This document shows positions 44,254 to 48,227 of a stretch of 64,000 nt of DNA, piece after piece (the first letter of the stretch is position 1; every line of letters starts with the position of its first letter). The notes beneath the pieces are model-generated. The model made no database searches. It had not been told where the DNA came from and saw only the letters and a list, made by a program, of their open reading frames with translations. The stretch lies in the NCBI RefSeq assembly GCF_036320485.1, contig NZ_CP132911.1:3348001-3412000 (forward strand), read 5' to 3'. The position numbers and the translations under genes are program-made. Origin of the DNA: Dyella sp. A6. GTDB taxonomy: Bacteria > Pseudomonadota > Gammaproteobacteria > Xanthomonadales > Rhodanobacteraceae.

Positions 44254-45111
44254 TCAGGCGGCGAACAGCCCGCGCATCTTCTTCATCGCATTGGCTTCGA
44301 CCTGACGGATGCGCTCCGCCGACACACCATACTCATCGGCCAGATCCTGCAGCGTCGCCTTGTCCTCATTCAGCCAACGGCGCTGGATGATGTCACGCGA
44401 GCGGTCATCCAGATTCTGCAGCGCAGCCGAAAGCGTCTCCATCTGGTTGTCCGCCTGGTCGGCATCGGCCACGTTGTCGTAGGGATCGGCACCTTCGTCG
44501 ATCAGGAACGCTTCCGGAGCCGGCTTGGCGTCGTCGTCGGCATCAGCCGGCGCCTCGAATCCGATATCGCGGCCGGACAGGCGCGATTCCATCTCGCGCA
44601 CCGTGGCTTCCGGCACGCCCAGGTCCCTGGCCACCACGCGCACTTCCTCGGCATTCATCCAGCCCAGGCGCTTCTTGCTCTTGCGCAGATTGAAGAACAG
44701 CTTGCGCTGCGCCTTGGTGGTGGCCACCTTGACGATGCGCCAGTTGCGCAGGATGAACTCGTGCATCTCGGCACGGATCCAGTGCACGGCAAAGCTCACC
44801 AGCCGGACACCCTGGTCCGGATCGAAACGCTTCACCGCCTTCATCAGGCCGATGTTGCCTTCCTGGATCAGATCCGCCAGCTGCAGGCCGTAGCCCGCAT
44901 AACCACGCGCGACGTGCACCACGAAACGCAGGTGCGACATCACCAGCTTCTTGGCTGAAGCCAGGTCGTCCTGTTCCTGGTAGGTGCGCGAGAGCGACTG
45001 CTCTTCTTCCTGGCTGAGCACCGGAATCCGGTGCACGGCCGAGATATAGGCGTCCAGGCTCCCGACCACGCTGGGGATCGGGAAATTGGCGGTCATCAGG
45101 GCTTGAGACAT
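44254..45111 (-). CDS. rpoH: RNA polymerase sigma-32 (heat-shock sigma factor)
   Basis: The 285-residue sigma factor directs transcription of chaperone and protease genes. Region 2 is [34 protein letters not shown]. The RpoH box QRKLFFNLR (135-143) identifies sigma-32, and region 4 contains [21 protein letters not shown]. An insert after region 3 is acidic ([13 protein letters not shown]). AGGAGG eight bases before the ATG is a strong ribosome site. A perfect CIRCE operator lies 29 bases upstream of the start codon, pointing to HrcA control in addition to any sigma-factor control. Confidence 0.97.
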
Positions 45112-45140
45112 GTACGGAACCTCCTGAATGAGGGGTCAGC

Positions 45141-45167
45141 TTAGCACTCTGGTACTTCGAGTGCTAA
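45141..45167. promoter_or_regulatory. Perfect CIRCE element (HrcA operator) in the rpoH promoter region
   Basis: TTAGCACTC (45141-45149), nine bases, then GAGTGCTAA (45159-45167) is identical in both arms and spacing to the CIRCE consensus bound by the HrcA repressor. It ends 29 bases before the rpoH start codon. HrcA usually represses groESL and dnaK operons; HrcA's activity depends on GroEL. Here it would tie sigma-32 synthesis to chaperone availability. Confidence 0.93.
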
Positions 45168-45649
45168 AGGTCGCGAAAGTTCCCGCCACCCATTTAATAA
45201 ACCAAATAGTACACGAAATGTATCTGCATGTCGAGATGTCCGTCGGCGCAATGGAGCAATGGCTGACGAACTCCAAACGCAAGCTCTCGCGACATGCCCT
45301 CAGACACATGTTTTACGGGTAACGGCCACGGGCAGATGCGTGTCGAGGAACGCGTGCACTCCCCCGCACTGATCCGGGAAATGCCCGCTACGCCGCTGGG
45401 CGCAAAGCGAAGCGCTGATCCGGCCAACTAATGGAAAGCGCCAACAGATTTTTCCGGTTTCACCATTGTCGCGCGCCACACCAAGCCCTCGGCGGACTTC
45501 GCGGACAGGTCCCGATTGACTGGACCTTGGCAGAACATGCCAAACTCCAGGCATCGGGGCTGCGCACCGGGTCGAATCGGTCAGTGACTGGAATCACTGC
45601 TGGCCACGGGTGCGCAGAGGAGTTCCAGGCAGCCGACCGAGGGGGTTTG
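45168..45649. other. Long gap between rpoH and the permease pair
   Basis: About 480 bases have no convincing gene. A distinctly AT-rich segment (45193-45236) just upstream of CIRCE is the likely rpoH promoter, read on the minus strand. TTGACT near 45515 could be a -35 for the permease genes, but no clear -10 is seen. Confidence 0.45.
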
Positions 45650-46972
45650 ATGATTGGGTACTATCTGGACTTGGCGCTCAACAGCGTCAAGCGCACGCCG
45701 ATCCTTACTGCTTTGATGGTGCTGGCGATCAGTCTGGGCATCGGCGCCACCATGACGATGCTGACCGTGCTGCATGTCATGACGGACGACCCCATGCCCG
45801 GTCGCAGCGCGCATCTGTATACCCCGCATCTCGACCCCTTGCCGCTCAAATTCACGAGTATCGCGACAGGCCGTGATGTCTCCGCGAACCTTACATGGCC
45901 GGATGCCATGGCCTTGCTCCAGGCGCATCGCGCCACGCGGCAGGCAGCGATGGCGGGCGGCCATCTGCTGGTACGTTCCGCAGATGACGGCGCGAAGGTC
46001 CGCCCGTTCTATGCAGACGGCCGTTACACCACGAAGGACTTCTTCGACATGTTCGGTGTGCCGTTCGAACACGGTACCGGCTGGACATCGAACGACGACG
46101 CGTCGAGCGCGCATGTGGTTGTGCTGGCGGACTCGCTGGCACAGAAGCTGTTCGGCAGCCATGACGCCATCGGCAAGATGGTGCAACTGGGCGACAAGGA
46201 TTTCCGGGTGATCGGCGTGACCGCGGACTGGCAGCCTTCGCCGATGTTCTATGCCGACGTCTCGTCCGACCACTACAGCAAGGGCGACCAGTTCTTCCTG
46301 CCGCTGTCCACCGCTGCCGACCTGGACCTGGACATCAACGGCAACATGGACACCTGGGTCGTCAGCCCTAGCGACGACTACATGCACAGCCCGACCGCGA
46401 CCTGGCTGCAGTTCTGGGTACAACTGGACACCCCGGCACAGGTCGCCGCGTACAGGCGGTTCCTGCGCAACTATTCCGAACAGCAACGGTCGCTGGGCCG
46501 CTTCCAGCGACCGGCCAGCAATGCGAAGCTCTACAGTCTGATGGGCTGGCTAGCGCACGAAAATCTGGTTCCTGACGACGTCCGCCTGCAGCTATGGCTG
46601 GCGTTGAGCTTCTTGTTCGTCTGCATGGTCAATATCGTGGCGCTGCTGTTGGCCAAGTTCCTGCGTCGCAGTGGCGAAATCAGCGTACGCCGCGCACTGG
46701 GTGCCAGAAAGCGTGACATTTTCGTGCAGTTCGGCATCGAATCGGCGCTCATCGGCCTGGGCGGCGGCATGCTGGGCGTGTTGATCGCAGAACTGGGCCT
46801 GTGGAGCGTGCGGCATCGCCCCGACGACTACGCCCACATCGCACGAATGGATCTATCGATGCTGCTTCTGACCCTGGTGCTTGCCGTTGTCGCCAGTGTG
46901 CTGGCCGGCTTGTTGCCTGCGTGGCGAGCCTGTTCCGTAGCACCCGCACTGCAATTGAAGAACAGCCACTAG
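45650..46972 (+). CDS. ABC transporter permease, MacB/FtsX type (first of a pair)
   Basis: The 440-residue protein has one N-terminal helix (PILTALMVLAISLGIGATMTML). A large periplasmic domain (about 45-310) contains the MacB-like ITADW/FRVIGV and FGVPFEHGTGW segments. Three C-terminal helices contain the FtsX pattern (SGEISVRRALGARKRDIFVQFGIESALIG). The ATG at 45650 is preceded by GAGGGGG. The second permease starts 25 bases after its stop. There is no ATPase or membrane-fusion partner beside them; the family pumps lipoproteins, peptides or toxins, or senses envelope signals. Confidence 0.88.
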   Translation: MIGYYLDLALNSVKRTPILTALMVLAISLGIGATMTMLTVLHVMTDDPMPGRSAHLYTPHLDPLPLKFTSIATGRDVSANLTWPDAMALLQAHRATRQAAMAGGHLLVRSADDGAKVRPFYADGRYTTKDFFDMFGVPFEHGTGWTSNDDASSAHVVVLADSLAQKLFGSHDAIGKMVQLGDKDFRVIGVTADWQPSPMFYADVSSDHYSKGDQFFLPLSTAADLDLDINGNMDTWVVSPSDDYMHSPTATWLQFWVQLDTPAQVAAYRRFLRNYSEQQRSLGRFQRPASNAKLYSLMGWLAHENLVPDDVRLQLWLALSFLFVCMVNIVALLLAKFLRRSGEISVRRALGARKRDIFVQFGIESALIGLGGGMLGVLIAELGLWSVRHRPDDYAHIARMDLSMLLLTLVLAVVASVLAGLLPAWRACSVAPALQLKNSH

Positions 46973-46997
46973 TCAGCTCGCACAGCACAGGACAATC

Positions 46998-48227
46998 ATG
47001 GAATTGCGTCCGATCATCTCCAGCCTCAGGCACCACGCGCTTACAGCCGCCCTGTTGACACTGCAGGTTGCCCTTACCTGCGCCATTGTCTGCAACGTGG
47101 CCTTCATGATCGCCAGACGCATCCAGCAGGTGTCGATACCGACCGGCATCGCGGAAAACGAGCTGTCCGTCATCCGCAGCCATGGCACCGGCACGGACGA
47201 TAATGCCGTTAATGCCGTTGCCCAGCACCAGACCGACCTGGCGGCGCTGCGCGCGATTCCCGGAGTCAGGTCGGTGGCGGCGGTGAGCTATGCGCTGCCC
47301 CTGAACAGGCAGGACGGGTTCGGCCTGGTCTGCACCACCCCGCAGCTGTCCCTGCACAGCAAGAGCTGCCAGATATCCAGCTTTTACGACGGCACACCCC
47401 ACCTGATCGACACACTGGGCCTGCATCTGACCGCAGGCAGGGATTTCCGATCCGACGAATTCGTCTCGAAGGACAATGATCATCCTCACGTCGTGATCAT
47501 CAGCCGTGCACTGGCCGACAGGCTGTATCCCGGCCAGGACGCCGTGGGCAAGATGCTTTACATGGGCAGGGGCCCCAACGCCCTTCAGGTGATCGGCATC
47601 GTCGCCGACTTGTTGCGCCCCCGACTGCGCGGCCCCGGCCAGAATCACCTGAGCCTGATCACCTCGCAATTGCCCAACAGCAACCGCGATACCTATGTGC
47701 TGCGAAGTGCGCCCACGGATCGGGAACGCATCCTGCAAGCTGCAACGAAAGCACTGTTCAAGACAGATCCCACCCGCATCCTCGATCCCAAGTATGTGCG
47801 GACGTTCACCCAGATTCGCGCCGCCTACTTTCAACGCGACACCACCATGATCGGCCTGTTTGTCGCGTCCGCCCTCGGCCTGCTGTTCGTCACGGCGCTG
47901 GGGATCGCCGGGCTGGCCAACTTCTGGGTACAGCAGCGACGGCGCAGCATCGGCATCCGTCGTGCCGTCGGCGCGACACGCAAGGACATACTCCGCTATT
48001 TCCAGACCGAGAACTTCCTGATCGTGACGACCGGCGTGGTGCTGGGCATGGCACTCGCGGTCACGCTGAACCTGCAGCTGATGAAGCACTACGAATTGCC
48101 CCGCCTTCCGCTGTGGTACCTGCCCATCGGCGCACTCGCACTGGAAGCGCTTGGCCAGATGGCTGTGTTCTTTCCGGCACGACGCGCCTCGCGCGTGCCG
48201 CCGCTGGAGGCCATCAGAGGACAGTGA
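46998..48227 (+). CDS. ABC transporter permease, MacB/FtsX type (second of a pair)
   Basis: The 409-residue protein has the same plan: N-terminal helix (ALTAALLTLQVALTCAIVCNVAFMI), periplasmic domain, and three C-terminal helices with RRRSIGIRRAVGATRKDILRYFQTENFLIV. The periplasmic domain contains two cysteines (LVCTTPQ and KSCQISS), absent from its partner, that may form a disulfide. It is probably a heterodimer with the preceding permease; both would need an ATPase from elsewhere in the genome. Confidence 0.87.
   Translation: MELRPIISSLRHHALTAALLTLQVALTCAIVCNVAFMIARRIQQVSIPTGIAENELSVIRSHGTGTDDNAVNAVAQHQTDLAALRAIPGVRSVAAVSYALPLNRQDGFGLVCTTPQLSLHSKSCQISSFYDGTPHLIDTLGLHLTAGRDFRSDEFVSKDNDHPHVVIISRALADRLYPGQDAVGKMLYMGRGPNALQVIGIVADLLRPRLRGPGQNHLSLITSQLPNSNRDTYVLRSAPTDRERILQAATKALFKTDPTRILDPKYVRTFTQIRAAYFQRDTTMIGLFVASALGLLFVTALGIAGLANFWVQQRRRSIGIRRAVGATRKDILRYFQTENFLIVTTGVVLGMALAVTLNLQLMKHYELPRLPLWYLPIGALALEALGQMAVFFPARRASRVPPLEAIRGQ

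Follow-up and report, generated by a model that had tools for sequence, protein, structure and literature searches.

Heat-shock control by a repressor (HrcA/GroEL) and by sigma factors (sigma-32, sigma-E) is often presented as a choice between two systems, or as two inputs acting side by side at groESL. The activity of HrcA depends on GroEL. In Escherichia coli, the rpoH promoter P3 is sigma-E dependent and of the GGAACTT type, the consensus for sigma-E promoters being GGAACTT-N15-17-TCnnA. To our knowledge, E. coli has neither HrcA nor CIRCE, and it was not among the control genomes that matched the hrcA profile used in this work. A 2003 study by Permina and Gelfand, which by its title reportedly covers beta-, gamma- and epsilon-proteobacteria, may already include cases of CIRCE upstream of rpoH from the beta or gamma group. 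A subsequent paper, whose profiles derive from that study, gives in its table 8 a perfect CIRCE ahead of rpoH of Geobacter sulfurreducens, at -51, as a sequence prediction (PMC545781).

The rpoH locus of Dyella sp. A6 that we describe here resembles that of G. sulfurreducens in having a perfect CIRCE ahead of rpoH, but G. sulfurreducens is a single delta-proteobacterium, and an overlap with a sigma-E promoter is not mentioned in the parts of that paper available to us (PMC545781). As the Geobacter case was published in 2004, the novelty that the original prediction implied for a CIRCE at rpoH is reduced. In the available part of a sigma-factor study in Xanthomonas campestris, rpoH is essential and the term HrcA is absent from the main text (PMC6085468). 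Within the accessible portion of the open-licence literature, outside which most subscription journals lie, we found no report that rpoH of this lineage is under the control of HrcA, and none of a sigma-E promoter overlapping CIRCE. The locus is like the groESL and hrcA-grpE-dnaK operons of the HrcA/CIRCE system in its operator, in the repressor family encoded in the genome, and in the presence of a groESL site too; it is unlike them in that the target is the gene for a heat-shock sigma factor and the spacer of the operator appears to hold a promoter -10. With E. coli rpoH P3 it shares a predicted GGAACTT-type sigma-E promoter at rpoH, which here, unlike in E. coli, would lie under an HrcA operator.

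Results

We analyzed a stretch of 64 kb (the window), in which rpoH occupies positions 44254..45111 on the minus strand and encodes a heat-shock sigma factor (sigma-32) of 285 aa (TIGR02392, 411.3 bits against a cut-off of 323.1; NF005143, 433.5 bits). The original prediction placed a perfect CIRCE 29 bases 5' of the rpoH start, and this was borne out. The predicted HrcA operator, at 45141..45167 on the minus strand, shows no mismatch to the consensus TTAGCACTC-N9-GAGTGCTAA, with both 9-bp arms perfect and a 9-bp spacer; it reads TTAGCACTCGAAGTACCAGAGTGCTAA on the rpoH strand (45167-45141) and lies near a predicted promoter, 29 bases from the rpoH ATG (45111). The sequence AGGAGG at 45120..45125 (minus strand) marks a ribosome-binding site. 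This CIRCE was the sole match with up to three mismatches in the window, and shuffled versions of the window contained a mean of 0.02 such matches (n = 100; two shuffles with one match each). Beside rpoH, on the plus strand at 45431-48227 of the window, there are two adjoining ORFs whose products, judged by eye, resemble FtsX/MacB-like permeases.

The host genome comprises 3.72 Mb in one contig. When the whole genome was scanned for CIRCE with up to three mismatches, two places only were found: the site at rpoH, and a site with one mismatch at 549890, which precedes genes resembling groES-groEL (read by eye). The same scan found no CIRCE at hrcA itself. The original prediction hinged on the presence of hrcA, and the genome does contain one match, which at 313.6 bits is well above the cut-off of 197.2; the repressor gene and the predicted operator occur together, as in an HrcA/CIRCE regulon.

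We then compared genomes of two families, each sampled from a larger group. A search for rpoH found it in 96 of the 97 from the host's own family (Rhodanobacteraceae) and in 97 of the 99 from a sister family, and we scanned the upstream regions of all 193 rpoH genes up to 300 bp from the start. CIRCE with up to three mismatches was found ahead of rpoH in 94 of the 96 own-family genomes, where 73 sites are perfect and 16 have one mismatch, and the conservation in close relatives that the original prediction called for is therefore present. The arms of these sites are conserved, and the spacer and flanks vary. Two own-family genomes (G238 and G351) keep hrcA and have no CIRCE at rpoH. Dyella flagellata, which among the matches listed is the closest named relative by rpoH (91%), has a perfect CIRCE there, likewise 29 bases from the start.

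In the sister family, CIRCE with up to three mismatches was found in 76 of 97 genomes, a figure that undercounts the sites, since a fixed mismatch limit excludes some symmetric variants with further changes and some sites with an eroded left arm. Many sites of this family have the symmetric form TTAGCAGTC-N9-GACTGCTAA, and in some the left arm is eroded (CCGGCAGTC and similar; four to five mismatches). Xanthomonas pisi shares this eroded left arm, from which we infer that the sister family includes the xanthomonads. When either C or G is accepted at position 7 and at the base paired with it, and as many as four mismatches are tolerated, 84 of 94 sister-family sites pass.

A wider set consisted of the best 80 named rpoH loci, mostly from beta- and gamma-proteobacteria, with a few from the own and sister families. 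One locus (L073) has no upstream sequence and another (L061) has only 63 bases of it. CIRCE with up to three mismatches was present at 42 of the 79 loci of these best 80 that have upstream sequence, which, together with the own-family result, rules out an oddity of a single strain. The four most distant loci (L080-L083) have no CIRCE.

The presence of CIRCE at rpoH follows that of hrcA. Among the best 80 loci, hrcA was matched in 40 of the 42 genomes with CIRCE at rpoH versus 6 of the 37 without it. Three of those 40 matches fall below the family cut-off, one being divergent (L029) and two being fragments (L065 and L072); the two genomes with CIRCE at rpoH and no hrcA match (L012 and L057) are metagenome assemblies, and the six genomes of the converse kind have hrcA and no CIRCE at rpoH. 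The divergent case is Pseudoalteromonas luteoviolacea (L029, G275), which has a perfect CIRCE at rpoH and whose only hrcA match scores 117.5 bits. At the level of the order, in a split of 250 genomes made by reading two tables and with CIRCE counted genome-wide rather than at rpoH, CIRCE occurred anywhere in 122 of 125 genomes with hrcA versus 19 of 125 without; sites with three mismatches carry little weight in this comparison, because a reversed control pattern also matches many of these genomes.

Within the own family, hrcA scores above the cut-off in all 97 genomes, and CIRCE at rpoH is thus conserved alongside its predicted repressor. Four of the 99 sister-family genomes have no hrcA match, and CIRCE with up to three mismatches precedes rpoH in 1 of these 4 versus 75 of the 93 with hrcA, the remaining 18 of the 93 having an rpoH site with more than three mismatches. 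Two genomes of one genus without an hrcA match (G387 and G424) have a decayed rpoH CIRCE with six mismatches, and a third (G013) retains at rpoH no more than a remnant, in which the spacer is longer; the fourth (G449) has no hrcA match, yet keeps an rpoH CIRCE with one mismatch. The first three are natural losses of hrcA that are useful for comparison. Related genomes are not independent, and the Fisher values given below consequently overstate significance.

A second element overlaps the operator. On the minus strand, a predicted sigma-E-type -35, GGAACTT (45177..45183), starts 16 bp before the start of CIRCE, and a predicted -10, TCGAA (45156..45160), completes the form GGAACTT-N16-TCGAA, which agrees with the motif of the sigma-E (RpoE) regulon and is conserved in relatives. 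The predicted -10 (TCnnA) combines the two letters that end the left arm of CIRCE with the three that open the spacer. In both families, GGAACTT is best matched 16 or 17 bases ahead of the CIRCE start at most sites. In the own family, 73 of 94 sites have a -35 with at least six of seven letters at -18 to -14, and 9 of 94 score four of seven or fewer there; in the sister family, the corresponding figures are 64 of 84 and 10 of 84. At least six letters are present in 0.4% of shuffles for the own family and 0.1% for the sister family. At the CIRCE loci of the wider set (best 80), 17 of 42 score below five of seven.

The CIRCE consensus leaves the spacer unconstrained (N9), yet its third position, which would be the last base of the -10, is A at 157 of 178 rpoH sites versus 5 of 60 groESL-type sites listed for related genomes (Fisher 2e-30, a value that kinship overstates), where "groESL-type" denotes any CIRCE located elsewhere than at rpoH, its orientation being set by a left arm of TTGG or CTGG on the model of the host's own groES site. 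Gene context was read only for that own groES site, the other groESL-type sites being assigned by their arms; in one genome (G414), rpoH was not found and the choice of groESL-type site is a guess. A recount added four orientable groESL-type sites among those listed, none with A at position 3, giving 5 of 64; a further eight sites were not orientable, and only one of these (G055) has A at position 3 in either orientation. In the wider set (best 80), A is at position 3 in 22 of 24 loci with at least six of seven -35 letters versus 4 of 17 with fewer than five (one intermediate locus excluded). Here the A is associated with the -35 box rather than with CIRCE in general.

The host genome encodes a sigma-E homolog (rpoE; TIGR02939, 321.4 bits against a cut-off of 236.15), and ahead of rpoE there is a sequence of the same form as the predicted rpoH promoter, TGAACTT-N16-TCAGA, again agreeing with the sigma-E regulon. 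This putative promoter may serve as a model within the genome for that of rpoH.

In the upstream regions of sister-family rpoH genes (L123, L143 and L232, for example), we observed a conserved palindrome near GTTCCATGAATGGAAC directly 5' of the sigma-E-type -35, starting mostly 35-38 bases before CIRCE. At least 11 of its 16 letters are present at 59 of 84 sister-family sites versus 4 of 94 own-family sites, compared with about 1.7% of shuffles. It looks like another operator and is a candidate for one.

Discussion

The original prediction held that HrcA controls rpoH. This part of it stands, in that CIRCE at rpoH is conserved and tracks hrcA, and predicted control by HrcA is well supported by the genome comparison; the account was incomplete, having overlooked a predicted sigma-E-type promoter, the -10 of which falls within CIRCE. 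The operator, the conserved overlap with the predicted -35 and -10, and the link to hrcA are apparent in the sequences compared. We think it likely that CIRCE at rpoH is an HrcA operator laid over the core of a sigma-E-dependent promoter, and that HrcA blocks sigma-E RNA polymerase there until GroEL is titrated.

Free GroEL would keep HrcA active, and HrcA bound to CIRCE would cover the -10 and start region and block sigma-E RNA polymerase. HrcA on its operator should exclude the polymerase because the predicted -10 and the expected start both fall inside CIRCE. Titration of GroEL by unfolded protein would release HrcA from the operator, and rpoH would then be transcribed in proportion to the activity of sigma-E. 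The sigma-32 produced would direct expression of chaperone and protease genes, presumably including groESL, and the resulting GroEL would restore HrcA and shut the loop. A distal sigma-70-like promoter could provide basal transcripts, for which bound HrcA would also act as a roadblock.

This distal element, TCGACA-N17-TACTAT at 45206..45234 on the minus strand, is a consensus match only (9/12); the scan covered 651 bases, and 50 shuffles of these gave a mean of 0.1 such matches. Lying about 40 bp upstream, it would give transcripts that carry the whole of CIRCE, and it raises the alternative that HrcA represses rpoH through CIRCE at a sigma-70 promoter, either upstream or within CIRCE itself, by roadblock or occlusion without sigma-E input and with GGAACTT unused. 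CIRCE can indeed be read as TTAGCA-N18-TAAnnT, or TAAnAT where AT follows. The second and third bases after CIRCE are AT at 35 of the 42 wider CIRCE loci (best 80), mostly within TAAAAT or TAATAT at a spacing of 18 bp from TTAGCA, and the third base is T at 41 of the 42; the same AT follows 64 of 84 sister-family sites, and the 17 wider loci with a poor sigma-E -35 also fit this alternative. However, the AT is found at only 9 of 94 own-family sites, the host hexamer being TAAGCT, and a sigma-70 promoter leaves unexplained both the fixed spacing of GGAACTT and the A at spacer position 3. We regard this explanation as rather unlikely for rpoH of the host, and suggest that in lineages without the sigma-E box CIRCE and the bases that follow it could be read as a sigma-70 core promoter, TTAGCA-N18-TAAnAT.

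Two other explanations appear far less probable. The 9-bp stem of CIRCE folds in RNA, and a hairpin in the 5' leader of rpoH mRNA might affect stability or translation in the manner of a thermometer; but a transcript from the predicted sigma-E start would have the stem cut off, since that start would fall inside CIRCE, the tracking of hrcA by CIRCE at rpoH also tells against such a role, and the predicted fold leaves AGGAGG unpaired with the CIRCE stem. The predicted fold of the 149 bases of leader and start is only slightly more stable than those of shuffled sequences (z = -1.79, equalled or bettered by 10 of 200 shuffles), and a scan against Rfam gave no match up to E = 1. On this weak folding signal and empty scan, a role at the RNA level was set aside as very improbable. 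That CIRCE at rpoH has no function, being a relic or having arisen by chance, could be argued from the two hrcA-bearing own-family members that have no site; conservation in the rest of the family, most sites being perfect while spacer and flanks vary, rules this reading out for practical purposes, as does an expectation of 0.02 matches per window, and we give it hardly any credence.

Returning to an HrcA operator over a sigma-E-dependent promoter, we lean, on balance, toward a more general form of this proposal. In the two families of the order, and among some beta- and gamma-proteobacteria, the spacer of CIRCE at rpoH would encode the sigma-E -10. Through a single element of about 40 bp, transcription of rpoH would then need both sigma-E activity, which signals envelope stress, and the release of HrcA, which signals a shortage of chaperonin in the cytoplasm; in other lineages, CIRCE itself would form the sigma-70 core promoter. 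If this is true, the HrcA/GroEL and sigma-32/sigma-E systems are arranged as a cascade across a large proteobacterial group, with HrcA above sigma-32, and the whole sigma-32 regulon, rather than groESL alone, would respond to titration of GroEL. Two stress signals would meet at one switch on rpoH in the host and in most of the close relatives examined, and a cheap and direct test would be possible in an environmental species.

The sister family also offers a view of how CIRCE half-sites change. In several genomes (G136, G426, G402, G396, and others), the half-site has drifted to GACTGCTAA both at the groESL-type site and at rpoH, as is the case in 11 of 28 pairs. Among the groESL-type sites listed for this family, 33 were typed, and an rpoH partner was available for 28. 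At arm position 21, both members of the pair carry C in 11 of these cases and G in 5. In a further 9, the groESL-type site has G where the rpoH site has C, and the opposite combination does not occur; once the three pairs with T at rpoH are dropped, the Fisher value is 0.046, which kinship again overstates. Joint drift of the two sites is suggestive only; the change to GACTGCTAA suggests altered HrcA specificity in this lineage of the sister family.
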